Positions 1-21,059 of a DNA stretch of 21,241 nt are shown here, one piece after another. Numbering within the stretch: the stretch's first letter is position 1; every line of letters starts with the position of its first letter. The position numbers and the translations under genes were made by a program. Under the pieces are notes generated by a model. That model did not search any database. It had not been told where the DNA came from and was given only the letters and a program-made list of their open reading frames with translations. This stretch comes from a virus, in the IMG/VR virus record IMGVR_UViG_3300009154_000332, positions 1-21,241 of that record. One strand, given 5' to 3'.

Positions 1-702
1 AACTCAGCGAGGCCCGACGGCGTGATCGAGACGCAGGAAGAGATCCCGGCCGAGGCTCAGGCCCGATTCCGCGATCAGTGGCGGGAGATCTACGGCGGGC
101 CGAAGAAACGCGGCAGCACGGCGATCCTGCCCAAGAAGACGCAATTCAAGGCGATCGACAGCAACAGCAACGAAGCGAACCAGTTCATGGAACTTCGCAA
201 GAGCATGTTGCCAGACATCGCCCGTGTCTACGGCATCCCGACAACGCTGCTCGGCGACGACGCGATGGCGAAATACTCAAACGTTGAACAGGAGTTCGTG
301 ACCGCCCACGTGTTCGGCCTGCTGCCTTGGCAGAAGCGTTTTGAGGGTGCGATCGACCGCTCGATCCTGCGGACATACGACAACCCGATGGACGGCCGGC
401 ACTACTGTCGGCTCGACAGCCGGGCACTACTGCGTGGCGACACTCAGGCCCGCGTGGCGCTGTACCAGTTCCTCTTCAACTGCGGCGCGATCTCGCCCAA
501 CGAGCTCCGCGACTTGGAAGACCTTGACCTGCTGGAGAACCCAGCGGCCAACGCAACCTACATGCAGCTCGGCTTTGCGCCGCTGGGCACGTCGGCGACT
601 GGAAACTCGCCTGACGTTCAGATTGACCAAACGCAAACGCAGTTTCCGTCAGACACGATCGAGCCGCAGGACATTCCGCAGATGGAGCCTACCGATGGCT
701 GA
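1..702 (+). CDS. Phage portal protein, HK97 gp3-like (5'-truncated by window)
   Basis: The frame is open from base 1, so this is the C-terminal part (about 233 residues) of a larger protein. The portal forms the dodecameric ring at one capsid vertex through which DNA is packaged and ejected. The fragment shows typical HK97-family portal features: a stretch around EANQFMELRKSMLPDIARVY, the 'YGIPTTLLGD' motif, a following 'YSNVEQEF' and 'WQKRFEGAIDRSIL' helix, and a Gln/Pro-rich tail. The GTG at 22 is an internal valine, not a start. The stop overlaps the protease start by 8 bp, the usual portal-protease coupling. The family call is from memory of conserved motifs; terminase genes would be expected just upstream. 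Confidence 0.9.
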   Translation, partial: NSARPDGVIETQEEIPAEAQARFRDQWREIYGGPKKRGSTAILPKKTQFKAIDSNSNEANQFMELRKSMLPDIARVYGIPTTLLGDDAMAKYSNVEQEFVTAHVFGLLPWQKRFEGAIDRSILRTYDNPMDGRHYCRLDSRALLRGDTQARVALYQFLFNCGAISPNELRDLEDLDLLENPAANATYMQLGFAPLGTSATGNSPDVQIDQTQTQFPSDTIEPQDIPQMEPTDG

Positions 703-1693
703 ACAAGAAATCGAACGGCGCTACGTTCCGTCGGTCGTCGAGCCGATCGAGCTCGAGGAGCGGTCGGCGGCCTCGCCGACGATCAAGGGCATCAGTCCGC
801 CGTTCAATTCCAAAAGCGAAGACCTTGGAAACTTCCGCGAGGTCTTTGCCCCTACGGCATTTGACAAGATCGTCGGCCGCCACCGGAACGACCCTCGCGG
901 CGGCATGGACGTCGTGGCCCTGTTCGACCACGTGGGGCAGCCTATCGGCCGTACCACGAACGATACGCTCAAGCTGGCAATCAACGAGCGTGGACTGGCC
1001 TACTCGATCAGCCCGCCCGACACCACGCTCGGCCGCGACATCGTGACGCTCGTTCGTCGAGGTGATCTCTACGGCGCGTCATTCGCGTTCTCGGTGGCCC
1101 CAGGCGGCGAGTCGTGGACGCAGGAGGCCGACGGGTCGGCCGTGCGGACAATCAGCGAGGTGGGAAACCTGTACGACGTGTCTGTCGTGACCCGGCCGGC
1201 CTACCCGCAGTCATCGGCCGCCATCCGATCGCTTGACGCTTGGAAGGCTGCCGTGAAGCAGATTCAGCAGCGTGCCGAGGGCTCGGGCCTCGTCATCTCG
1301 CTTGACTACGACCGGACGTTTACGGCCGCGCCGGGAATGTGGCGATCGTTTGTGGAACTTGCCAACGAGCGCGGCAACCGCGTTGTGTGCATCAGCCGAC
1401 GTGAAGAGACGGAGCAGAACGTCGAGGAGATCCGGGCGGCATTCTCTGGCCTCGACATCAGAGAGATTGTGCTGTGCGGCTCGGCCACGCAGAAGCGAGA
1501 CGCCGCGGCCACTCGCGGCATCGCGGTCGACGTGTGGATCGACGACTACCCGGAAGGGATCGTGGCAACCGAGTCGAGATCAGCCGCCGACGACGCAGCC
1601 GACAAGCGCCGCCGCTGGTCATACGCACTGACGGCAGCTTCCGCCCGGCTGATCTCTGCGAGGCTCAAGTCGAATGCACCACGAATCAAGTAG
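695..1693 (+). CDS. Prohead protease fused to a C-terminal HAD-like phosphatase domain
   Basis: A protein of 332 aa. Residues about 20-180 are an HK97-type (S78/U35) prohead protease, which cleaves the capsid delta domain and itself during maturation. Visible catalytic candidates are H79 in 'FDHVGQPIGRT', S129 in 'GDLYGASFAF' and E155 in 'SEVGNLYDVSVVTRPAYP'. Most such proteases end soon after the last motif. Here the frame runs on: residues about 197-290 carry the four HAD signatures, namely D204-x-D206 in 'LDYDRTFT', S234 in 'VVCIS', K267 in 'TQKRDAA' and D283-D284 in 'VWIDDYPE'. The second half resembles small stand-alone phage HAD proteins. ATG 695 overlaps the portal stop; the longer frame upstream is a shadow of portal. 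The protease role is firm. The HAD activity and substrate (phosphatase, possibly nucleic-acid 3'-phosphatase) are inference. Confidence 0.9.
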   Translation: MAEQEIERRYVPSVVEPIELEERSAASPTIKGISPPFNSKSEDLGNFREVFAPTAFDKIVGRHRNDPRGGMDVVALFDHVGQPIGRTTNDTLKLAINERGLAYSISPPDTTLGRDIVTLVRRGDLYGASFAFSVAPGGESWTQEADGSAVRTISEVGNLYDVSVVTRPAYPQSSAAIRSLDAWKAAVKQIQQRAEGSGLVISLDYDRTFTAAPGMWRSFVELANERGNRVVCISRREETEQNVEEIRAAFSGLDIREIVLCGSATQKRDAAATRGIAVDVWIDDYPEGIVATESRSAADDAADKRRRWSYALTAASARLISARLKSNAPRIK

Positions 1694-2194: not shown

Positions 2195-2751
2195 TTTCCG
2201 CACTTTTCGTACTCGGAGCCGTCTATCTGATCGCGGGCAAGCAGATCGCCGATCGGTTGCTTTCGCTTTTCGCGAAAACGGAAATGCCAGCCGTGGACGC
2301 CAAGAGCGCGGTGGCAGTTGCCTTGCTGGTGGCAGCCGCTGCAATGTACATGCCGCACATGGACACCACGCCGTCCCCTGCCCCGGCTCCCGAGCCGCCC
2401 AACGGTTTCACGCTCAAAGGAAAGTTCATCGGCCCGACTGCCAGCCAGGACGCCGCCACGCTTGGCGCCCTGTGCGACGAGCTGGCCAACGTCCTCGACT
2501 ACGACTGGGCACAGGCCGAGCCAAGGATCAAGACAGGGGCGGCTATCGAGGATCTGCGTCTCGCAGCTCGAGAGGCCCGTCTCCGCGGCGTGTCGCTCGG
2601 TGCCCGGCAGCCATACGCCCGCGATGCCGTGAAGGCGTATCTGGATCAGGTCGCTGGGACGTCTGGCGGGCCTCTGACGCCAGAGCAGCAGTCGGCGTGG
2701 GTCTCCGCATTCCGTGACGTCGGGAGGGCTGCAAACGATGCCGCGCGATGA
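2191..2751 (+). CDS. Membrane-anchored small protein of unknown function
   Basis: A protein of 186 aa with a clear AGGAG six bases before ATG 2191. The N-terminus is hydrophobic (residues 1-16 'MISALFVLGAVYLIAG'). A second hydrophobic segment follows at about 38-52 ('AVAVALLVAAAAMYM'), then a Pro-rich linker ('PSPAPAPEPP') and a soluble, mostly helical domain of about 120 residues. This is the layout of a small membrane-tethered protein with its C-terminal domain outside or inside depending on topology. It starts in an ATGA junction and overlaps the papain-like peptidase gene by 14 bp. It could be a holin, a spanin-like element or a peptidase partner. I recognise no family. Confidence 0.75.
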   Translation: MISALFVLGAVYLIAGKQIADRLLSLFAKTEMPAVDAKSAVAVALLVAAAAMYMPHMDTTPSPAPAPEPPNGFTLKGKFIGPTASQDAATLGALCDELANVLDYDWAQAEPRIKTGAAIEDLRLAAREARLRGVSLGARQPYARDAVKAYLDQVAGTSGGPLTPEQQSAWVSAFRDVGRAANDAAR

Positions 2752-3835
2752 AAACGGCGACCTGCTGGTCTACGACCCGATGTCGTGGCGTGCCATCGTC
2801 GGTGGCATCCTTGTGGCCGTGGCCGCGTGGATGGCCACGCGGGCGCTGTGGCACGCCGAGCGTGCGATCACCGGCAACACGAACTACGGCTACACGCCAG
2901 ACCCTGTCGGTACGCGACAGTTTCTTGACGAGCTTGAGCAGCCAAACTTCCGCCAGGCGGGCGCAGACGCAGTCGCCAAGGCAAAGGGCGTCGACACGTT
3001 CCTGTATCGTGCCGCCGACAAGGCCAGCCGGGCCGTCTACGCCAAGCCTTTCGCGCCGTGGAATCAGGGCAACGCTGGCACGTGCGTGTCGTTTGGATGG
3101 GGCATGGGTTCGTGGATCGGTCAGAGCGTGGCGTGGGCGGCCGGTGAGCTTCCTGCGCCGCCCAAGATGGTTGCCACCGAACCGATCTATGGCGGCTCCC
3201 GCACAGCAGGACGACTGCCGCCAGTGACGTTTGCCGGCTACTCCGACGGATCGTATGGAGGTGCAGCGGCTCGCTGGGTGTCTGGCAAGTGCAGGGACTC
3301 TGCCGTCGGCGGCATCCTGTATCGCGAGAAGTACGCAGGCGTTGATCTGTCGCACTACTCGATCCCGCTGTCTCGCGAGTGGGGCAACAGCGGCGTGCCC
3401 CTCGAGCTCGCCCGCCTGGCCCACGACCACACGGCCACAGCCGTGGCCCAAATCAACGACTACGACTCGCTTGTGGCCAGCATCGAATCGGGCTACCCGG
3501 TGCCGATCTGTAGCAACGTCGGATTTGCAGCTACCAACGTCAGGGACAAGGACGGATTCCTGCCCCGTGGCGGCACGTGGAGCCATTGCATGGTGATTGT
3601 GGGGTGTCGCCACGCAGCCACCAGCGGACGCGACGGCGTGCTGGTCCTGAATAGCTGGGGCAATTTCTGCTCAGGCCCAAAGTGGCCGCCGGATCAGCCC
3701 GACGGCTCCTTCTGGATCTCCAAGGCAGACGCTACCAGCATCATCGCTCAAGGCGACTCGTTCGCGATCGGCTCTGTCGGCGGCTTTAAGTACCGAGATT
3801 TGCACAACGGCAACTGGATGGAGGTGGCCAAGTGA
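2738..3835 (+). CDS. Papain-family (C1) cysteine peptidase with N-terminal membrane anchor
   Basis: A protein of 365 aa. The papain triad is readable in order: Q110 (oxyanion hole) and C116 in 'NQGNAGTCVSFGWG', H283 in 'WSHCMVIVG', and N305 in 'VLVLNSWGN'. A hydrophobic helix at about 18-34 ('AIVGGILVAVAAWMATRALW') suggests membrane anchoring. I see no typical propeptide, only a helical stretch of about 75 residues before the catalytic core. ATG 2738 is preferred to GTG 2714 because GGGAG precedes it. Phages rarely encode C1 peptidases in the head module. The context (small membrane proteins on both sides) suggests a lysis or cell-envelope role, cutting envelope protein or peptide cross-links. 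That role is inference; the peptidase family is well supported. Confidence 0.9.
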   Translation: MPRDENGDLLVYDPMSWRAIVGGILVAVAAWMATRALWHAERAITGNTNYGYTPDPVGTRQFLDELEQPNFRQAGADAVAKAKGVDTFLYRAADKASRAVYAKPFAPWNQGNAGTCVSFGWGMGSWIGQSVAWAAGELPAPPKMVATEPIYGGSRTAGRLPPVTFAGYSDGSYGGAAARWVSGKCRDSAVGGILYREKYAGVDLSHYSIPLSREWGNSGVPLELARLAHDHTATAVAQINDYDSLVASIESGYPVPICSNVGFAATNVRDKDGFLPRGGTWSHCMVIVGCRHAATSGRDGVLVLNSWGNFCSGPKWPPDQPDGSFWISKADATSIIAQGDSFAIGSVGGFKYRDLHNGNWMEVAK

Positions 3836-4558: not shown

Positions 4559-5779
4559 ATGAACAAGCTCCGACTCGCCCAGGACGAAATCTCCGCCCTC
4601 ATCCCGCAGATCGAGAACCTGCGGAACGTCGACCCGGCCGACGACAAGGACGGCGCTGCGGCGGCCGCCCTGGAAAGGGCGCTGACGCGTGCGGACGAGC
4701 TCAACGTGGTCGTTGAGCGCGAGAACGCGATCGAAGCCCGCCTCGCCTCTGCTCGTGCCAAGCTCACGCCCGTCTCCGACAGCGAGCCCCGCGCCGCCGT
4801 CGAGAAGGGCGAAGTGGCCGGCGACCGTGCCGACATCCGCTCGGGCGTCAAGGCGTTCAGCTCCTCCAAGGCAGCGGCCCTGGTGGGCGGCTACCTCCGG
4901 CAGCTTTACACCGGCGAGATCCGGGCGATGGGCGAGACCAGCTCGACCTACGACGCCAAGGGCGCCGAGTACGTGATCGGTGAGCTCTACAACGCCATCG
5001 TGAACCGCCTGCAGTACGCGTCGGTCGGCCTGCAGCTCGCGACGGTCATCCGGCCCGCCGGTGCCAAGATCAGCTTCCCGAAGGTGGGCGACGCCACAGC
5101 GTCGTTCGTGGCAGAAGGCACGGCGTCGACCGATCAGGATCTGTCGACGAGCGTGGCCGACCTGACCCTCTACGAGATGCGTGCCAGCGTGGCCGTGTCT
5201 CGCAGCCTGCTCGAGGACTCGCCGATCGACGTGGCCGGCCTCGTGGCCGAGCGGTTCGCCCTGTCGTACGCCCAGAAGTTCGACGCCGTCTGGCTCGGTG
5301 GCAACTCGTCCAGCCCGTCCATCACCGGCCTCGCCGGTGCGGTAGCGGCTGGCAACACCATCACCGTCGGGGCCTCTGCCGCGACCACGCTCGCCAACCT
5401 TGCCGACGTCGTCGGCAAGGTCGACGAGACCGTGATGGGAACTAGCTCGTGGGTCTGCAGCCGTGCTGGCTGGGTTGACCTGATGAAGATCTGGTCGGCA
5501 CAGCAGACCACCCAGACGGTCGGCGGCGGCCGCGTGGTGCCAACCGTGTTCGGTGCTCCGGTCTACATCGTCAAGGGCCTGCCCTCGACGACGCTGGCTC
5601 TCTACGGTGATTTTTCCATGAGTTCCGTGGTCGGCATCAAGGACAGCGGCCTTGAGATCGAAGCTGGCCGCGAGATCCTCATGCGGAATCGCCAGGTGCT
5701 CTACGTGGCCAACACCCGGTTTGGCGTGGCCAACCACGCCCCCGAGTTCGTCGGCCGGCTCGCCAAGGCCGCGTCCTAA
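4559..5779 (+). CDS. Major capsid protein, HK97 gp5 family
   Basis: A protein of 406 aa. ATG 4559 follows GAGGA with 4 bases between. Residues 1 to about 100 are charged, helical and coiled-coil-like, as in the scaffolding delta domain that the upstream protease removes. The following fold shows the family signatures: 'AEYVIGELYNAIVNRL', 'TVIRPAGAKISFPKV', 'LTLYEMRASVAVSRSLLEDS', 'WVCSRAGWVDLMKIW', 'GAPVYIVKGLPS' and a C-terminal 'VLYVANTRFGVANHAPEF'. Codon use is strongly C/G-ending and more uniform than in the fibre genes, as expected for a highly expressed gene. The 83-bp gap before it and the hairpin after it suggest it can be regulated as its own unit. Confidence 0.93.
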   Translation: MNKLRLAQDEISALIPQIENLRNVDPADDKDGAAAAALERALTRADELNVVVERENAIEARLASARAKLTPVSDSEPRAAVEKGEVAGDRADIRSGVKAFSSSKAAALVGGYLRQLYTGEIRAMGETSSTYDAKGAEYVIGELYNAIVNRLQYASVGLQLATVIRPAGAKISFPKVGDATASFVAEGTASTDQDLSTSVADLTLYEMRASVAVSRSLLEDSPIDVAGLVAERFALSYAQKFDAVWLGGNSSSPSITGLAGAVAAGNTITVGASAATTLANLADVVGKVDETVMGTSSWVCSRAGWVDLMKIWSAQQTTQTVGGGRVVPTVFGAPVYIVKGLPSTTLALYGDFSMSSVVGIKDSGLEIEAGREILMRNRQVLYVANTRFGVANHAPEFVGRLAKAAS

Positions 5780-12139: not shown

Positions 12140-12945
12140 TGCCACTTGCCACCAAAAACGGATCGCTCATTGTCAAGGACGGCGGCATTGCAGAGAACTG
12201 CGACTGCTGCGGTAGGTGGTATTGCTATTGCGAAAACGATTGCAGCACAACGCCAGCGTGTTCGTATTGCCTTGGATCATGCCCGCCATATCGCGCACCA
12301 GAGAGTTTCACGGCCACGGTAACTGCGTCTGATTACGTCAATAGGATAATGGGCCGAGTCTACGCTAACATTAATGGAAATTCTGGAGCGGGAGTTGGAC
12401 TCACTAGTTATTTCAAGGGAAGCGCATTGTCTGGGACGCACACGCTCAGCCGAGTTAGCGCAACCCGATACGAGGCAAACCTTCCTGACAGCCCGGCGTG
12501 TTCGTCATCAGGAGTTGCAGCGTCTAGCATCTCTTTTGACTTAGCAAGCTGCTATTTCGCAGCCTCCGTGCGCGGACAATTTGAATCAAGCCTAGCTAGC
12601 TATCCTTCAGATACCGTTCCCCGCGCCGGTGCCGACCTAGGGTGCAGCACTCAGACTTGCCCGAACCCCTACTCATGCGCTACAGCAAGCTCATCATGGG
12701 TGTTAAGGAACTTCACGTCTTTTCCTTTCGGCAAGTTTGTTTCGTGTAATGAAATAACTTCCTCTTCTCCTGTTGTGTTCACGCTAACGCTACCAGAAAA
12801 ATGGTGGGCGGAAGGGTCATATGTCGGATTTGCCTTTACATCCTATCCGGGGTTTACAGGCCCATACGGGTATGTATCCGACCCAGTGGTATACGAGCAG
12901 ACTGGGTCTCGCACCGTCACCGTGTCTGTCGTTCCCAATTATTGA
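12139..12945 (+). CDS. Cysteine-rich tail protein 1, receptor-binding candidate
   Basis: A protein of 268 aa. Residues 21-48 hold nine cysteines (C21, C23, C24, C29, C31, C35, C41, C44, C48), a density typical of metal-binding or disulfide-knotted domains. The rest is a beta-rich, Ser/Tyr/Gly-rich domain with further paired cysteines near 'DLGCSTQTCPNPYSCA'. Base composition here is visibly lower in GC, with many A- and T-ending codons, unlike head and tube genes. That suggests horizontal exchange or relaxed selection, common for receptor-binding parts. No family is recognised. Start ATG is in a TAATG overlap. Confidence 0.65.
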   Translation: MPLATKNGSLIVKDGGIAENCDCCGRWYCYCENDCSTTPACSYCLGSCPPYRAPESFTATVTASDYVNRIMGRVYANINGNSGAGVGLTSYFKGSALSGTHTLSRVSATRYEANLPDSPACSSSGVAASSISFDLASCYFAASVRGQFESSLASYPSDTVPRAGADLGCSTQTCPNPYSCATASSSWVLRNFTSFPFGKFVSCNEITSSSPVVFTLTLPEKWWAEGSYVGFAFTSYPGFTGPYGYVSDPVVYEQTGSRTVTVSVVPNY

Positions 12946-12958
12946 CCGAGGCTGCTGA

Positions 12959-13747
12959 ATGCCGTGCAGAAAAGTTGCAACTTATAACGGGAAATATGGC
13001 GCAGGGAAACTTGATGGCGGCGGCGGCTACGCCACCGAAGCCGAGTGCAACCAAGCCTGCAAAGAGGGCGCGTGCTGCGAGGGCACGACGTGCAGCGTCA
13101 AGCCAGCGTGCCAGTGCCAAGGGACGGGGAAGACGTTCAAGGGCATCGGGACGGTGTGCAGCCCAAATCCGTGCGTGAACTGCCACGGGTGCGTAGCTCC
13201 TCATCCGACATATATGAACGTGACGTTTTCTCAGACTGCGCCCATCAGCGGCGGGTATCACCAATCTCTTATTGACCTGTCTGGCTCGTATTCCGTGCCG
13301 TCCAGCGGGTTTGGGAATGGAAACGCAGACATTGGATGTAATTTCTGCGGTCGATTTTCAAAAACGTATGCCAATGCTGTTGTGACTTCGTCAGGAACTT
13401 TCAGTTTGGTTGTGAATTATTTCATCATTGCTTCTATCTGGCGTGACTCTAAGTCGATTGGCATCGCCATGTACGGCGCGCAGATGAACGCTGGAGACGT
13501 TCAGGACCGAGGCCCCGGGATTTACCAATTCAGCGTCTCGACTGGTGGCTTATATGCCATGATTTCACCCAGTTGCGAATTTGCCAATGCCGAGCAATTG
13601 CAATCATTTGATTCATGCGAAGGAAACACATACCAAGCCGTGAGGGCCGGATGGACGGCAGCGTCTCCGACAAATAACAGTCAGTACCGCATAACCTTAA
13701 ATCAAGACGCAGTAGTGTGCGGGAGCTTTTCATGGGCGAAAGCGTAG
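12959..13747 (+). CDS. Cysteine-rich tail protein 2, receptor-binding candidate
   Basis: A protein of 262 aa. Twelve cysteines fall within the first 78 residues. Residues about 37-72 read GACC...GTTC...C-x-C...GKTFKGIGTVC...C, the pattern of short cysteine repeats I associate with planctomycete exported proteins ('ACC...G-x-C...C...G-x-F-x-G-x-GT-x-C'). The remainder is a beta-rich Ser/Gly/Tyr domain with three more Cys pairs. The GC content falls towards the 3' half. With gene 12139-12945 it forms a pair of the same layout: cysteine-rich head plus beta domain. A role in host recognition is inferred. Confidence 0.65.
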   Translation: MPCRKVATYNGKYGAGKLDGGGGYATEAECNQACKEGACCEGTTCSVKPACQCQGTGKTFKGIGTVCSPNPCVNCHGCVAPHPTYMNVTFSQTAPISGGYHQSLIDLSGSYSVPSSGFGNGNADIGCNFCGRFSKTYANAVVTSSGTFSLVVNYFIIASIWRDSKSIGIAMYGAQMNAGDVQDRGPGIYQFSVSTGGLYAMISPSCEFANAEQLQSFDSCEGNTYQAVRAGWTAASPTNNSQYRITLNQDAVVCGSFSWAKA

Positions 13748-14127
13748 CAGTTTGCGCTGGCGACGGTGAGGTTTGCAGCGCATGCCTTCACCCACTGCCA
13801 GCGGCGGGAGTCATTCGCGCATGCGGCGGTTTGTCGCACCGGCCGCTGCCAGAACTGCCAGCACCACCAGCGAGCGGCCCCGGCACCGAGCTAAAGAAGC
13901 TCCTCGCCAAGGTCGGCATCACCGCCACGCCCGACTGCGCGTGCAACGCCCGAGCCGCAGAGATGGACCGCCAGGGCGTCGAGTGGTGCGAGGCCAACCT
14001 AGACACGATCGTCGGCTGGCTCCGCGAGCAGGCCGAGGCTCGCGGGCTGCCGTTCCTCGACCTAGCCGGGCGGATGCTTGTGCGGCGGGCGATCAGCAAC
14101 GCCCGGAAAGCCGCTGGCGGCAGCTAG
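13732..14127 (+). CDS. GTELKKLL / CxCNARAxxMD-domain protein, unknown function
   Basis: A protein of 131 aa. ATG 13732 is preferred to GTG 13717 because GGGAG lies just ahead. It overlaps the previous gene by 16 bp. N-terminal cysteines (C8, C15, C18, C31) could bind metal. Residues about 48-127 are a domain I recognise but cannot name: 'GPGTELKKLLAKVGI', 'CACNARAAEMDRQGVEWCE' (C69, C71, C86) and 'TIVGWLREQAEARGLPF'. This domain appears in many phage and planctomycete proteins with no known function. The three fixed cysteines suggest a metal site. It is in the tail-tip region, which hints at an adhesion or envelope role. Confidence 0.7.
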   Translation: MGESVAVCAGDGEVCSACLHPLPAAGVIRACGGLSHRPLPELPAPPASGPGTELKKLLAKVGITATPDCACNARAAEMDRQGVEWCEANLDTIVGWLREQAEARGLPFLDLAGRMLVRRAISNARKAAGGS

Positions 14128-14194: not shown

Positions 14195-14581
14195 GTGGCC
14201 ACAGCGTTCGTCCAGACCCCGGCTGACATGTCGATTGAGTTCGTCGTCGGCGACGAGCTCAACGTCGGCCTGGCGTTCACCTCGAGCTCGACGCGAATCA
14301 ACCTGACTGGCTACACGCTGGAGGCCAAAGTCTTCCGGCCCGTGTTTGCCAACCCGGACGGCTCATTCAGCCAGGGGGCCTACACGGTCGGTGCCACGGC
14401 TGCCACGTTCACCGTATCGGCCGTATCGCTCAGCGGCGGCACCGTGAACATTGGTCTGACGGAAACACAGACGTCGGCCCTCAGTCCGGCCACCGGCTAC
14501 CGCTGGTACTTCCGGTGGGTCGACACGGCCGGCGTGACGCTGACCGTATTGTCTGGCACGTTCACCGCGAGGATTCCGTGA
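14195..14581 (+). CDS. BppU-like N-terminal-domain protein 1
   Basis: A protein of 128 aa from GTG 14195, with AGGAG upstream. The sequence resembles the N-terminal domain of baseplate upper proteins: 'VGDELNVGLAFTSSSTRINL', 'GYTLEAKVF', 'GTVNIGLTETQTSAL' and 'YRWYFRWVDTAGVTLTVLSG'. Such domains connect fibres to the baseplate. It stops in a GTGA overlap with the fibre gene, and a paralogue lies at 18478-18795, after the second fibre. Confidence 0.7.
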   Translation: MATAFVQTPADMSIEFVVGDELNVGLAFTSSSTRINLTGYTLEAKVFRPVFANPDGSFSQGAYTVGATAATFTVSAVSLSGGTVNIGLTETQTSALSPATGYRWYFRWVDTAGVTLTVLSGTFTARIP

Positions 14582-17088
14582 GTATTACCGTTACCGTCAA
14601 CGGGCAGTCTGGCCCGAACGTCACCGCGACAAACGGAGACACGATCGCCGTCACGGTGTCGCCGTCTGCCGCTCCGGGCGCCACGGGGCCAACAGGACCG
14701 GCAGGCCCGTCAAACAGCCTGGCGATCGGCACTGTCACGACCGGCACTGCAGCGGCGACAATCACCGGCACGGCTCCAACGCAGACGTTAAACCTCGTCC
14801 TGCCAGCTGGTGCGACCGGAAGCCAAGGCCCACAGGGCGGCGTTGGTGCGACTGGTCCTGCTGGGCCTGCAAACAGTCTGGCGATTGGCAGCGTGTCGAG
14901 CGGCAGCTCGGCGTCGGCGACCATCACCGGATCATCGCCCAGCCAGACGCTAAACCTCGTGCTGCCTGTCGGTGCCACCGGCGCGACTGGTGCCACTGGC
15001 CCGCAAGGCCCAGCGGGTAGCGTCAACCTCGCGGACGAGACGCCGCAGCCGCTCGGCACAGCGTCGGCAGGCACGGCCCTGTCAGCAGCTCGAGCTGACC
15101 ACGTTCACGCACAAGGCTCGATCGCTTACTCGGGCCTCTCTGGTATTCCAAGCACATTCGCACCATCGGCACACTTCCACGCCGTGAGCGACGTGACTGG
15201 CTTGCAGACGGCGTTGGATTCCAAGCAGGCGGCTGGCACATACGCCACGCTGGTGGGTGGCACCGTGCCCTCGGCGCAACTGCCGAGCTACGTCGATGAC
15301 GTGGTTGAGTACGCAAATCTCGCTGCGTTTACGGAGCAATCGACCGGCAAGATCTACGTTGCTCGCGACACCGGGAAAATCTACCGCTGGAGCGGCTCTG
15401 CTTACGTCGAGATCTCGCCGTCCCCAGGCTCGACGGACAGCGTGACTGAGGGATCTACAAACCTCTACTACACCAATGCACGAGCCTCGGCAGCGGCTCC
15501 AGTGCAGAGCGTAGCGGGCCGCACGGGGACGGTGACGCTCGCGAAGAGTGACGTGGGCCTCGGCAACGTGGACAACACGGCAGACGCCAGCAAGCCTGTC
15601 TCGACGGCGCAGGCTGCCGCTGATGCAGTCGTTCAGGCATACGCGATCCAGCGAGCCAATCACACCGGCGCGCAAGCGATCTCAACTGTGACTGGATTAC
15701 AGACGTCGCTGGACGGCAAGGCCGCTACGTCACACACGCACTCTCTCTCCGACATTTCTCAATCGTCTGCCACCACGGGCCAGGTGCCGACGTGGAACGG
15801 ATCGGCGTGGGCTGCTGCAACGCCAAGCGGTGGTGGCGGTTCGTACACGCTGCCGACTGCTACGTCGTCAGTCCTTGGCGGCGTCAAGGTCGGCTCGTGC
15901 CTCACGATCACTGATGGAGTGCTGGCGGCCACTGGCGGCGGCGGCTCTGGCCTCACATGGTCTAGCGTGCCAGCTTCAGCGTCTGCGACGGGGACGGCGG
16001 GGCAGATCGCGTATGACGCCAATTTTGAATACACATGCGTGGCTGCTAGCACTTGGATCAGAACTCCGCTGCCAACGTGGAACCGTGACGCAGATTTTGT
16101 TTACTTCGGCGGCACGTTTACTTCTGCCTCATATTCCGCAGGCCCAACGCACGGGCGAGGCTCCACGGCGTTTCTTGGCGGAGTCACGCTGGCAAACGGC
16201 AATGTTGCTCTAGTGCCTTATAACTCTAGCACCATTGGCATATACAACCCAACAGCGAACACATACACGAATGGACCAACACATGGAGTCTCTTCTCCAG
16301 CGTTTGCAGGTGGTGCGTTGGCTGCAAATGGGAAGGTGATATTCGCACCTAACTCATCTGTCATCGGCATCTACGACCCTGTTGCGAACACTTACGCAAA
16401 CGGTCCGACTCACGGGCAAGGCGACTCTGCCTTTTATGGTGCTGTGACAATTCCTGACGGCAAGATTGCGTTGATACCGCACAAATCAGCATATATAGGT
16501 ATCTACGATTGCTTTGCAAACACTTATACCAACGGCCCTGCGCACGGGCGAGGCGATGCGGCGTTTGTTGGCTGCTGTACTTTAGTATCCGGCAAGGTTG
16601 TTCTTGCCCCGTTCGCCTCAACTGTCATCGGCATCTATGACCCTGTTGCGAACACTTACGCAAATGGTCCGACGCACGGGCAGGGTGCGAGTGCGTTCGA
16701 TGGCTGCGTCCAGATGCCAAGCGGCAAGGTGTGTCTGGTCCCCAATTACTCTGCCAATATCGGCATCTACGATCCGCTGACAAACACCTACACAAGCGGG
16801 CCGACGCACGGGCAAGGCACGAATGCCTTCGCTGGAGGCGTGTTGCTTCCCAGCGGAAAGGTTCTGCTTGTGCCTTACGGTGCCAGCTATGTCGGCATCT
16901 ACGACCCCGTCGCAAATACTTACACAAACGGCCCATCCGCCACAGGGTTCTTTGGTGGAATGCTACTTCCAAGCGGAAAAGCTGCATTGATTCCGTTGGC
17001 GGCGTCCAGCGTAGGCCTTGTAACGCCCAGCCCACTTACTGCGACCACCAGCGACATTGCGACAGGACAATACCTCAACAAGTTCTAG
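14578..17088 (+). CDS. Large collagen-like tail fibre with seven propeller-type repeats
   Basis: A protein of 836 aa from GTG 14578 (GTGA overlap). Collagen-like triplets lie at about 34-44, 78-97 and 132-147, separated by two copies of a 'NSLAIG-x-V...ATITG...QTLNLVLP' module. Two 'VTGLQT-x-LD-x-K' fibre repeats follow (about 215 and 390), with 'SDVGLGNVDNTADASKPVST' (about 334-353) as in many phage fibres. From residue 519 to near the end come seven repeats of 43-44 aa with the pattern 'GIYDP-x-x-NTY-x-x-GPTHG', which together should form one seven-bladed beta-propeller. The C-terminal propeller is the likely receptor-binding tip. The longer reading from 14515 overlaps the BppU-like gene and is rejected. 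Confidence 0.88.
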   Translation: MSITVTVNGQSGPNVTATNGDTIAVTVSPSAAPGATGPTGPAGPSNSLAIGTVTTGTAAATITGTAPTQTLNLVLPAGATGSQGPQGGVGATGPAGPANSLAIGSVSSGSSASATITGSSPSQTLNLVLPVGATGATGATGPQGPAGSVNLADETPQPLGTASAGTALSAARADHVHAQGSIAYSGLSGIPSTFAPSAHFHAVSDVTGLQTALDSKQAAGTYATLVGGTVPSAQLPSYVDDVVEYANLAAFTEQSTGKIYVARDTGKIYRWSGSAYVEISPSPGSTDSVTEGSTNLYYTNARASAAAPVQSVAGRTGTVTLAKSDVGLGNVDNTADASKPVSTAQAAADAVVQAYAIQRANHTGAQAISTVTGLQTSLDGKAATSHTHSLSDISQSSATTGQVPTWNGSAWAAATPSGGGGSYTLPTATSSVLGGVKVGSCLTITDGVLAATGGGGSGLTWSSVPASASATGTAGQIAYDANFEYTCVAASTWIRTPLPTWNRDADFVYFGGTFTSASYSAGPTHGRGSTAFLGGVTLANGNVALVPYNSSTIGIYNPTANTYTNGPTHGVSSPAFAGGALAANGKVIFAPNSSVIGIYDPVANTYANGPTHGQGDSAFYGAVTIPDGKIALIPHKSAYIGIYDCFANTYTNGPAHGRGDAAFVGCCTLVSGKVVLAPFASTVIGIYDPVANTYANGPTHGQGASAFDGCVQMPSGKVCLVPNYSANIGIYDPLTNTYTSGPTHGQGTNAFAGGVLLPSGKVLLVPYGASYVGIYDPVANTYTNGPSATGFFGGMLLPSGKAALIPLAASSVGLVTPSPLTATTSDIATGQYLNKF
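16132..17040 (+). repeat. Seven tandem propeller repeats in the fibre gene
   Basis: Six full repeats run from 16132 to 16920 (44, 43, 44, 44, 44, 44 codons) and a seventh, divergent one from 16921. Each holds 'x-x-G-K-V...P' and 'IGIYDP-x-x-NT-Y-x-x-GP'. DNA identity is partial, so this is an old protein repeat rather than a recent expansion. Repeats 2 to 6 are the most alike. Confidence 0.85.
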
Positions 17089-17092
17089 TGTC

Positions 17093-17251
17093 ATGACCGA
17101 CTCCGAGACCATCACCGTCGCCCTCGCCTACGCGGCTCTCGCGTTGGTCGGCCCGTTCATCCTCACGCGGCTCATGCGGTGGGCTGAGAGCGACGAGGCG
17201 GCGAATCTGGCGGTCGAGATTGGAATGGCGATTGAAGGGGTGGCGAGATGA
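17093..17251 (+). CDS. Small single-pass membrane protein between fibre genes (52 aa)
   Basis: From ATG 17093, with one hydrophobic helix ('[20 protein letters not shown]') flanked by charged ends and a C-terminal amphipathic helix. No clear ribosome site is visible and it starts 4 bases after the fibre stop, so coupling is likely. Its end overlaps the next ATG (ATGA). It could be a small holin-like protein lying outside the main cassette. The reality of the gene rests on the hydrophobic helix and the tight junctions. Confidence 0.5.
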
Positions 17252-18315
17252 GCGACATCTCCGCGTCTGTGACATCGCAGCCGATCACGGCCACAGTCTC
17301 AGGCGGCACGGTCTCGGCGTCTGTGACGAGCTCGAGCTCGTCGGTGTCGATCGCCGGCGGCGTTGGGCCGCAAGGATCATCGGGGCCGGCTGGAAGCGTT
17401 GGATTAACAGGCCCCGCGAACACACTGTCGATCGGGTCTGTCGCTGGCGGCAGCTCGGCAGCGGCTACGATCACGGGAACCGCTCCTTCTCAGGTACTCA
17501 ACCTGGTACTGCCAAGGGGTGACACAGGGGCGGCTGGCGTTGCTGGACCGCAAGGAGCGCAAGGGCCGCAAGGCTTGGCAGGAGCTACGGGAGCGCAAGG
17601 CCCTCAAGGCGTGGCAGGAGCCACGGGCAGCGTCGGCCCGCAGGGACCAGCAGGAGCCACGGGCAGCGTCGGCCCGCAGGGACCAGCAGGCAACTCGGCT
17701 TCAGCGACAACGTCGGCATCCGACCTGACCAGCGGCACGCTGGACGATGCGAGACTCTCATCAGCGGTTGCCCTGCACTCGCAGATCAACACAACGCTGG
17801 GGCAGGCGTCTGGTGTGATTGACGCTGTGTCGCGAGTGAACTGCGGCTATGGCGTGACTGCCGTTGCTGGTCAGGCGTTGCTCTCGTTTTTCACGCCCAC
17901 GGCAACTATCACCGTGTCGCAGATTGCGATGTGTACCTACACCACTGCCGCAGCAGGGCTAACGCTCGCACGCATGGGTATTTACACGTACACGGAAGGT
18001 GGCAGTGCAACGCTGGTGGCTCGCACCGCCAGTGATACGACGCTATTTGCGGCAACTAACACAACCTTTACGCGGTCACTGGACACCGCAGGCGGATACC
18101 CGTCGTCCTACACCCTCAATGCAGGGACTCGCTACGGCGTGGCGTATATCTGCGTTGGAACGACGCAGCCGCAGTTGGTCGGCCGGGTTGTTTTCACCGC
18201 CGCAGCCGCTTTGTCTCCGCGAGTGTCTGGCAGCTCTTCGACAAGTCTTAGCGATCTGCCAACTTCGTTCACACCAAACGCCAATAGCCAAGCACCATAC
18301 GCGAGGCTCTCATGA
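17248..18315 (+). CDS. Second collagen-like tail fibre
   Basis: A protein of 355 aa. ATG 17248 is preceded by GAAGGGG and overlaps the previous stop. The N-terminus is Ser/Thr/Val-rich, followed by one 'NTLSIGSV...[17 protein letters not shown]' module (from 17419), the same as the two in the large fibre. A run of about 19 Gly-X-Y triplets follows (17518-17688), including a tandem 36-bp repeat. The C-terminal domain (about 190-355) is beta-rich ('[20 protein letters not shown]', '[10 protein letters not shown]') and may be a second receptor-binding or structural tip. The shared modules suggest the two fibres are related by duplication or recombination. Confidence 0.85.
17615..17686 (+). repeat. 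Perfect tandem 36-bp repeat in collagen region
   Basis: Bases 17615-17650 and 17651-17686 are identical, coding [12 protein letters not shown] twice. It keeps the Gly-X-Y phase, so copy-number change would lengthen or shorten the fibre stalk without a frameshift. Perfect identity, including third positions, points to recent duplication by slippage or recombination. Confidence 0.95.
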
Positions 18316-18809: not shown

Positions 18810-19037
18810 ATGGCCAAGAAATCCAAACGATTCTGGGTCGGCGACCCGGACGGATTCGGGATGCCAGACGAGGACCAGGTCGAGGGGTCGCTGACCCCGG
18901 ACGATGACGGGTGCGTCTATCTCAACCGTCGGCGTCCTGCCGACCAGGAGGCCAAGGATGGCAAGAGCGGTAATGCCGAAGCATCGTCGAAACGCAAGCG
19001 ACCCTTGGACGGTCGAGACGCTCGAGGGCGGCGTTAA
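18810..19037 (+). CDS. Small polar protein, unknown (75 aa)
   Basis: ATG 18810 follows GGAGG by 5 bases. The product starts 'MAKKSKRFWVGDPDGFGMPD', has an acidic middle and a Lys/Arg-rich end. The last 26 codons overlap the phosphoesterase gene in another frame, so the C-terminus is less certain than the N-terminus. It may couple translation to the phosphoesterase gene. No family is recognised. Confidence 0.55.
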   Translation: MAKKSKRFWVGDPDGFGMPDEDQVEGSLTPDDDGCVYLNRRRPADQEAKDGKSGNAEASSKRKRPLDGRDARGRR

Positions 19038-19863
19038 CAGGCTGACGTTCAAGGCCAGGCTGTGGGTGCTGCTCACAAGCGACTGGCACTGGGACTCCGT
19101 GAAGTGCGACCGAGAGAAGCTGGCAGCGGATCTTGCCGCAGCGAAGAAGGTCAACGCAGCGGTGTTGTCCATCGGCGACCACTTCGACGTGATGGGCGGC
19201 AAGTGGGACCCACGCTCCAACGGCAAGAACGACATCAGGCCGGAGTTCCAGCGTGGCAACTACTTCGACGACATCGTGACGCAGTGTGCCCAGTGGCTGG
19301 AGCCGTACCGAGACCAGATGGCCCTGATCACGCCCGGCAACCACGAGACGGCCGTCCGTAAGCGGATGGAAACCTGCCTGACGACCAGGCTGGTTGAGCG
19401 GCTGCGGATGAACGGCGGCCGTGTCCGCCAGGGCGGCTACGCAGGCTGGGTGCTGTTTCGAGCTATGCACGGCGGGAACTGCGTGGCCCTGTACCGTCTG
19501 TGGTACCACCACGGCTACGGCGGCGGCGGGCCTGTGACACGCGGCGTAATCGACTTTTCCCGCTACCTCGTCGACACCGATGCCGACTGCGTTCACGCCG
19601 GCCACATTCACCAGCGGACGCTGATCGAGGCTACCAGGCAGCGGCTCTCGCCGAGCGGTATCCCGCAGATCAAACCGATCCATTTGGTGAGGAGCTCGAC
19701 ATATAAACAGGAATGCCTTACTGATGGGTGGGCCGTGGAAAAGGGCATGTCGGCCAGACCGCTCGGCGGCTGGTGGATGCTGTTGAAATGGAACAGCGAC
19801 AAGACCGGCCTGGTGGCCTCGTTCCACGACCAACCCGGAGAAACTTGCGATGACGACGAGTGA
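18958..19863 (+). CDS. Calcineurin-like metallophosphoesterase
   Basis: A protein of 301 aa. ATG 18958 follows AGGAGG by 6 bases; ATG 18973 is an alternative. Metal-binding motifs appear in the family order: D42-x-H44 in 'LLTSDWHWD', G-D74-x-x-D in 'SIGDHFDVMGG', G-N128-H129-E in 'TPGNHET', H185 in 'YHHGYGG' and G-H216-x-H218 in 'HAGHIHQ'. This makes a two-metal hydrolase of phosphomono- or phosphodiesters likely. The target could be nucleic acid (as in SbcD-type enzymes) or another phosphoester. Its position after the fibre genes and before the integrase is at the end of the late region. Confidence 0.88.
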   Translation: MARAVMPKHRRNASDPWTVETLEGGVNRLTFKARLWVLLTSDWHWDSVKCDREKLAADLAAAKKVNAAVLSIGDHFDVMGGKWDPRSNGKNDIRPEFQRGNYFDDIVTQCAQWLEPYRDQMALITPGNHETAVRKRMETCLTTRLVERLRMNGGRVRQGGYAGWVLFRAMHGGNCVALYRLWYHHGYGGGGPVTRGVIDFSRYLVDTDADCVHAGHIHQRTLIEATRQRLSPSGIPQIKPIHLVRSSTYKQECLTDGWAVEKGMSARPLGGWWMLLKWNSDKTGLVASFHDQPGETCDDDE

Positions 19864-20221
19864 CACTTACGCCATGGAGCCGTCTGCACCAGAGCGGCCC
19901 GGCTCGCTGCCGTTCCTCGAGCTCGTCGAGGAGCTGCGGCAGCTCCACCTGGCGAAGACGGCACAGTACGGAGACGAGGCCGACCCGTTCGCCAACGTCT
20001 CCGCGTCCGCAAAGTGCGGAGTGGAGCCTTGGCGCCGGGCGCTGTGCGACCTGTCGGACTGCGTGGTCAGGCTGCAACGTTACGCCAGCGGCCAGCCAGT
20101 GGACATCGAGAATGCAGCACTGGATGCCGCCAACTGGGCGCTGATTTGCCTGCTCAAGATGCGGGAGGCTCAGGGTCGAGCCGCAGAAGCGGCATCACGG
20201 CACGCTCTTCTGGGCAGATGA
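19850..20221 (+). CDS. Small helical protein, MazG/DUF1599-like
   Basis: A protein of 123 aa. ATG 19850 has GGAG 9 bases upstream and overlaps the phosphoesterase stop by 14 bp. The pattern 'LHLAKTAQYGDEADPFANV' then 'LCDLSDCVVRLQRYASG' and 'AALDAANWALICLLKMRE' follows the DUF1599 type: K-x-x-x-YG, D-x-F-x-N, then DAA-x-D/N-x-A-x-x-L. That group is linked to MazG-like nucleotide pyrophosphohydrolases and nucleotide-modification loci. The call is from pattern only. Its 3' end overlaps the integrase gene on the other strand by 68 bp. Confidence 0.6.
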   Translation: MTTSDTYAMEPSAPERPGSLPFLELVEELRQLHLAKTAQYGDEADPFANVSASAKCGVEPWRRALCDLSDCVVRLQRYASGQPVDIENAALDAANWALICLLKMREAQGRAAEAASRHALLGR

Positions 20222-21059
20222 CTGGATCGACGTATACCTCCTGCATTTTCGGGTCTGCGTGATCAAGCATCCGCGTCGCTGCTGCCCGTCCGCCGGCCAG
20301 GGCGGCGTATGAGGCTGCCGTACGCCTGAACCCGTGGAAACCTCTGTAACGCACTCCTGCGGATCGACAGAGCAGCTTCAGGCTTGTCCACTGGCTGCGG
20401 CTCTTCCTGTCCCAGATCCACACCAGCCCATCTGGCGGGCCTTTGTAGGCCGCCATCGTCTTGGCGAGGTCTGGGGTGATGTCACGCTCGATGTCACGTG
20501 TCTGCCCTTTCCTGGTCTCGCCAAGGAACACCAGCTTGCAGCGTTCCAGATCAACCTGAGCCCATCGGATTGACGTCAGGGCCGTGTATCGCTCACCGCT
20601 GCAGAACGCTGCATACACCAGCGTGCTCCACCACCAGGCCGATGGCACGCCGCCGGTGTTTCCGCGCCGCAATCTGGCCCTGATGATCAGCTTCTCGACG
20701 TCTTCGGTGGTGTACGCCCGGCCGTTTGGCAAACGCTTAGGAACCCTGATTCTTGGCAGTTCTGGGAACTGGTCCACCCACTTTTTCTTTGCCGCCAGCG
20801 TCCACGCTGCGGCGATCATGTGCTTGTCCTTGGCGACCGTGGCTGGCTTTGGAATCTGGCCTCGCCACGCAGGTGTTTCGGCCCGCCATCTCAGGTATCG
20901 GCTCATCACCAAGTCGTCGAGGTCAGCCGTCGTGGCCTCGCGCCCGAGAAACAGTTTCAGCCTGTCTGCAAGCATCCCGTAAAGCAGGGCCGTTTTGCTA
21001 TCTAAGTTCCTCAGAGTCACGTATCGATCGAGCAGTTCACGCATCGTGATCGGTTCCAT
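20154..21059 (-). CDS. Tyrosine-type phage integrase
   Basis: A protein of 301 aa on the minus strand. Catalytic residues readable in order: R157 in 'CSGERYTALTSIRW', K184 in 'TRKGQTR', H242-x-x-R245 in 'GFHGFRRTAAS', H267 in 'MLDHADP' and Y276 in 'EVYVDP'. The N-terminal half is a helical core-binding domain. ATG at 21057-21059 has AAAGG about 7 bases upstream. It catalyses integration and excision at attP/attB. It is convergent to the late operon with 68 bp overlap, and no excisionase is visible. It places the prophage end near the window's right edge. Confidence 0.92.
   Translation of the reverse strand: MEPITMRELLDRYVTLRNLDSKTALLYGMLADRLKLFLGREATTADLDDLVMSRYLRWRAETPAWRGQIPKPATVAKDKHMIAAAWTLAAKKKWVDQFPELPRIRVPKRLPNGRAYTTEDVEKLIIRARLRRGNTGGVPSAWWWSTLVYAAFCSGERYTALTSIRWAQVDLERCKLVFLGETRKGQTRDIERDITPDLAKTMAAYKGPPDGLVWIWDRKSRSQWTSLKLLCRSAGVRYRGFHGFRRTAASYAALAGGRAAATRMLDHADPKMQEVYVDPVICPEERAVMPLLRLDPEPPAS

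Follow-up and report, generated by a model that had tools for sequence, protein, structure and literature searches.

An optional HAD-type domain inserted in HK97-type prohead proteases of viral contigs

Introduction

Prohead proteases are usually seen as pure assembly enzymes, which enter the prohead and then self-destruct; those of HK97 and T4 cut the capsid delta domains or the scaffold there, and themselves. What would a phosphatase-like domain do in such a protein? The question is raised by a gene at positions 695–1693 (plus strand) of a 21,241-base metagenomic viral contig, the whole of which was analyzed and is referred to below as the window. The original prediction had read this gene as an in-frame combination, not previously described, of a prohead protease and a catalytically complete HAD phosphatase domain. 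We consider here whether the combination is real, how it is built, where the HAD domain comes from, and what it might do.

Results

The gene and its protease core

A single open frame, without interruption, leads from the ATG at 695 to the stop codon at 1691–1693 and encodes 332 aa, comprising an S78 prohead protease core, an inserted HAD domain, and a conserved C-terminal tail. The gene sits between those of the portal protein (22–702, plus strand; C-terminal part only, as the window start truncates the gene; PF04860, E = 1.1e-35) and of the HK97-type major capsid protein, the presumed substrate of the protease (4559–5779, plus strand; PF05065, E = 2.9e-26). The end of the portal gene overlaps the protease gene start, and the protease gene ends 2.9 kb before the capsid gene.

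The protease core (residues 1–183; 695–1243, plus strand) was delimited by the Pfam S78 match, invariant alignment columns, the structural model, and the end of DNA homology. Domain searches agree with the assignment of this half in the original prediction: Peptidase_S78 (PF04586) covers residues 22–180 (E = 7.6e-35; 120.9 bits vs. the curated cut-off of 21), and TIGR01543 (proheadase_HK97) is also matched above its cut-off (E = 5.3e-21; score 75.3 vs. 59). In the whole-protein prediction, the core resembles the T4 gp21 fold (5jbl; Z 11.3, rmsd 3.2, 143 aligned). Two of the three proposed active-site residues stand, as the catalytic His and Ser, H79 (929–931) and S129 (1079–1081), are invariant across 35 family members. 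The third one, E155, is probably misassigned, since elsewhere in the same alignment this position holds D, N, K, Q, or R, while D161 (1175–1177) is invariant.

The in-frame combination recurs in many viral contigs

As the window is a viral contig from a metagenome, an assembly or sequencing artefact merging two genes might have produced the observed frame, e.g., via a frameshift at 1240–1280. An IMG/VR scan with the HAD half alone retrieved 80 loci, 77 of which have an S78 protease upstream in the same frame, the other three being truncated by the contig start. In a wider set, 139 of 150 members are fused, the remainder being eight stand-alone genes from GenBank and the three contig-cut loci mentioned above; a scan with the protease core of a distant member yielded 54 fused loci out of 59, the other five being cut. 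Overall, considerably more than 100 viral contigs share the architecture (these counts refer to contigs, not independent phages, and the records are fragments), which hence is no assembly accident. Moreover, the same junction is found in many independent samples, some of them strongly diverged in sequence. The same-frame junction across the locus sets rules out a frameshift or a chimera, and the probability of an artefact is practically nil.

In L044, L066, and L078, whose stop-to-stop frames are very long, a triple fusion with the portal gene was considered and rejected, as the upstream part does not encode portal protein in this frame and the protease begins at its own ATG. One fused gene (L061:175-1152) shifts frame immediately past motif IV of HAD, probably due to a sequencing error.

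Literature searches in open-licence full texts retrieved no earlier description of the combination, and none of the 701 records of GenBank phages matching the protein covers at least 80% of its length, or both of its parts. Thus, the domain matches, the uninterrupted frame, and the HAD fold described below bear out the central claim of the original prediction, including its novelty within these sources.

The HAD domain is an internal, optional insertion

Relatives were selected by the capsid protein alone, a bait unbiased as to HAD. Among 39 such relatives holding a protease, 25 have the HAD domain and 14 lack it. The HAD-less proteases have a length of about 235 aa (220–240 aa) with the same core and tail as the window protein, and in the closest HAD-less relatives the capsid protein is up to 95% identical. 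Blastn alignments with seven HAD-less relatives run from window positions 1–13 to 1243 (84–90% identity) and resume, in all seven, at 1573 or 1585 (84–86% identity); the DNA between these borders takes about 40–50 nt in the HAD-less relatives vs. 329 nt in the window (1244–1572, plus strand; residues 184–293), and the protein alignment defines the same inserted segment. A short segment such as AENLTSHELEQLVEQQ stands in place of HAD, probably forming a helical linker between the core and the tail. The C-terminal tail (residues 294–332, 39 residues; 1574–1690, plus strand) is kept with or without the insert, sharing the sequence AADKRRRWSYALTAASARLISARLKSNxPRIK; perhaps, and this is a guess, it serves prohead or scaffold targeting. 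An end-to-end fusion, with HAD at the protein end, is therefore not what we observe: HAD is an internal insertion, optional between close relatives and followed by a conserved tail. The same plus/minus pattern is seen in more distant protease lineages (L226 and L230 vs. L012-type proteins).

No HAD was found elsewhere in 16 fragmentary records of HAD-less phages, and thus its function is dispensable and accessory. A comparison of genes unique to HAD-less or HAD-containing phages gave no convincing candidate for a replacement (crude gene calls, 11 records).

The lambda C/Nu3 pair is an example of an internal start that yields a separate product. In the window, an in-frame GTG at 1253, preceded by the Shine–Dalgarno-like GGAAGG, is a possible internal start for a product consisting of HAD and the tail; it is conserved in the window's clade only. 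As a general feature such a start was rejected, since one is present in just 12 of 71 representatives.

Family, fold, and motifs of the HAD domain

Pfam (HAD_PNKP, PF25109, included) and NCBIfam scans of the HAD part produced no meaningful match, nor did a PDB sequence search, whether the query was the whole protein or the HAD profile. The HAD part matches two phage families of unknown function, phrog_4919 (E = 1e-19) and phrog_4256 (E = 1e-16), both of which are matched by all 20 members of set A2. In the whole-protein model, residues from about 175 to 300 resemble HAD phosphatases. The AlphaFold model of HAD alone, with 33 family sequences as input, has pLDDT 90.5 (97–98 in the core), and its best solved match is the T4 Pnkp 3′-phosphatase (Z 10.6, rmsd 3.1, 99 aligned); bacterial Pnkp1 scores Z 9.1, and these two outrank the acid phosphatases, lipins, and sugar-phosphate phosphatases. 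A Foldseek search with the HAD model gave nothing below E = 0.001, and thus the fold assignment relies on the second aligner and the motifs. The hhalign comparison of the HAD family profile with the T4 Pnkp phosphatase domain revealed no sequence kinship (hhalign probability 1%). Residues 197–290 (1283–1564, plus strand), the region that the original prediction had expected to form a HAD fold, are indeed predicted to do so.

The HAD motifs, all within this region, also agree with the original reading: D204 and D206 (motif I, DxDxT), K267 (motif III), and D283 and D284 (motif IV) do not vary among 35 family members, and Ser or Thr is found at position 234 (motif II, with R236). Strict patterns for all four motifs are matched by 97 of 102 distinct inserts; four of the other five retain the catalytic residues and differ only at a neighboring pattern position, and in one insert (L075) the first Asp of motif IV is replaced by Glu. 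The dN/dS ratios (Nei–Gojobori, 19 pairs) are 0–0.42 for HAD and 0.02–0.19 for the protease, i.e., well below 1, which indicates purifying selection on HAD. As the motifs are kept in essentially all inserts and dN/dS is low, the domain is likely an active phosphatase.

These data bear on the suggestion that HAD is needed not for catalysis but as a spacer with a structural or regulatory role, affecting the timing, the dimerisation, or the release of the protease. HAD does replace a short linker, probably a helix, at a site that may be sensitive to length and geometry; however, the retention of motifs I–IV with invariant active-site columns, and the persistence of empty proteases in close relatives, make the spacer quite improbable.

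Probable capture, gain or loss, and exchange

Relative to stand-alone homologs, the HAD inserts form one clade (support 97/95), and since they fall on one side of a branch, a single capture is the simplest reading. When mapped on a tree built from 84 protease cores, the presence or absence of the insert switches six times, with at least four changes forced by strongly supported branches.

In several phage pairs, the portal and HAD regions are about 88–99% identical, and the protease core and the portal C-terminus have been exchanged for diverged counterparts (about 60–65% identity); the right breakpoint of the swapped segment coincides with the protease/HAD border. Comparison of protease genes with about 1.5 kb flanks showed such a cassette (protease core plus portal C-terminus) swapped between near-identical phages in L053/L051, L064/L066, L047/L048, L043/L044, and L035/L033. 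The breakpoints recur about 270 nt upstream of the protease start and at the border between protease and HAD. One sample is the source of both L041 and L044. The reverse exchange, a common protease with different HAD domains, is seen in L012/L145 and L047/L150. Judging by these sequence comparisons, the protease and HAD are both mobile as modules.

Such exchange among near-identical phages, with breakpoints at the portal end and the protease/HAD border, could also be expected if the HAD DNA were a neutral by-product, that is, a recombination anchor or a hitchhiker in a mosaic head-gene region. This is very improbable, given the purifying selection on HAD and the retention of its motifs.

Stand-alone relatives and the likely substrate

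The relatives sampled outside the insert clade are small stand-alone phage proteins of about 110–160 aa, and all 80 IMG/VR loci nearest the stand-alone type lack an S78 protease in their flanks (up to 2.5 kb on each side). The stand-alone gene adjoins MazG in 4MG and GAP31, lies near DNA polymerase and phosphoesterase genes in ECBP2 and Bas88, near thymidylate synthase in Motura, and near ribonucleotide reductase in RHph_I3_11. Recurrent families among 87 IMG/VR neighbors are DNA polymerase A, Pnkp-type HAD, calcineurin-like phosphoesterase, thymidylate synthase, dGTP diphosphohydrolase, MazG, and polynucleotide kinase. One stand-alone relative is located beside a Thoeris inhibitor family gene (Tad3), and one, beside a T7 gp5.9-type RecBCD inhibitor. 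The Pnkp-like fold and these gene contexts favor a nucleotide or polynucleotide phosphomonoester as the substrate; nucleic-acid or nucleotide substrates would fit better than phosphoproteins, a suggestion, not proof, which rests on fold and context due to the missing sequence-profile link to T4 Pnkp.

The same contexts can be taken to mean that HAD works only in the infected cytosol, e.g., in nucleotide salvage or in phosphate removal from defence signals or damaged ends, with packaging being incidental and the protease gene merely securing late, high expression. The location of the stand-alone relatives in replication and nucleotide-metabolism regions and, in single cases, by the inhibitors named above, speaks for this option, as does the insert being optional and exchanged like an accessory gene. 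On the other hand, a separate gene would do as well, yet the inserts remain one clade inside the protease, and the 16 HAD-less records have no separate HAD gene. We regard a purely cytosolic role as possible, though somewhat unlikely.

Other genes of the window and the host

A papain-like gene (2714–3835; motifs NQGNAGTCVSF, HCMVIVG, and LNSWG) without a Pfam or PHROG match lies between the protease and capsid genes, and HAD-less relatives have similar genes at the same place. At 12150–13750, two or more cysteine-rich proteins of unknown function are encoded, e.g., CCEGTTCSVKPACQCQGTG. Two putative tail-fibre genes (14515–17088 and 17248–18315) contain collagen-like Gly-X-Y stretches, and the former also has several YDPVANTYTNGPTHGQG-type repeats, as in a propeller. 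A calcineurin-like phosphoesterase (18904–19863) is assigned to DNA repair exonucleases (phrog_7339). The presence of an integrase (20154–21059, minus strand; phrog_1, E = 1.2e-24) suggests a temperate phage.

The genome scan for a host with the fused protein found nothing. In the scan with the capsid protein, a single 6.2-kb contig was hit; it belongs to a freshwater MAG with the label Alphaproteobacteria and may be a phage contig binned there in error.

Discussion

At the level of sequence, the comparisons demonstrate the insertion architecture with its natural empty state, the single clade of inserts, their repeated gain or loss, purifying selection, and intact motifs. In the explanation that we prefer, an HK97-type prohead protease acquired, probably in a single event, a minimal, catalytically complete HAD of the phrog_4919/phrog_4256 type at the hinge that joins its core and tail; recombination among related phages afterwards led to gains, losses, and exchanges of the insert. 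The insert would be an active phosphomonoesterase, with nucleotides or the 3′ ends of nucleic acids as its most likely substrates. More tentatively, we propose that the protein continues to enter the prohead, since its core and tail, which may direct this step, are unchanged, and that HAD would be carried there at the protease copy number; by analogy with the general biology of HK97 and T4, such packaging is plausible. HAD may act in the infected cell ahead of assembly, within the prohead, or once self-cleavage of the protease has set it free. Taken together, we consider this account reasonably probable.

A bolder version treats the hinge as a natural cargo slot: the phosphatase would be carried in, freed by protease cleavage, and kept in the head. 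Its target would be the ends of the packaged DNA, or it would accompany the genome into the next host, e.g., to counter nucleotide-based defence. Taken as a whole, this chain of events seems unlikely.

The widespread, optional, and selected HAD provides a natural plus/minus pair of close phages, which allows one to ask whether domains borne by the protease are packaged, released, or injected. The site suggests an insertion point where proheads could be loaded with a protein. In addition, phrog_4919 and phrog_4256, families of unknown function, acquire a predicted fold and a likely activity class.

Comparison with known systems

The T4 Pnkp 3′-phosphatase domain is the closest solved fold and, like the window HAD, has an arginine after the Ser/Thr of motif II; the window HAD is smaller, without a kinase domain and without detectable profile similarity. 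Class C/B acid phosphatases (e(P4), AphA) share the HAD core (Z 7–10), but are larger bacterial enzymes with 10–20% identity and no sequence match found. Proteins of phrog_4919/phrog_4256 (e.g., from Suseptimavirus ECBP2, Seunavirus 4MG, and Moturavirus) belong to the same HAD family, with the same motifs and 25–36% identity to the window domain, and differ in being encoded by stand-alone genes. Polyvalent phage proteins, large multidomain, multi-effector proteins that, according to PMC5512222, are likely carried in the capsid, resemble the window protein in the idea of a capsid-carried multidomain phage protein; no HAD phosphatase within a prohead protease turned up when that paper was searched by term. 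Finally, HK97-type prohead proteases (S78, PF04586, TIGR01543, T4 gp21 fold) are similar to the window protein in the core domain with its His and Ser, and in the gene place from portal to major capsid protein; the window protein differs by the HAD inserted between this core and the C-terminal tail.
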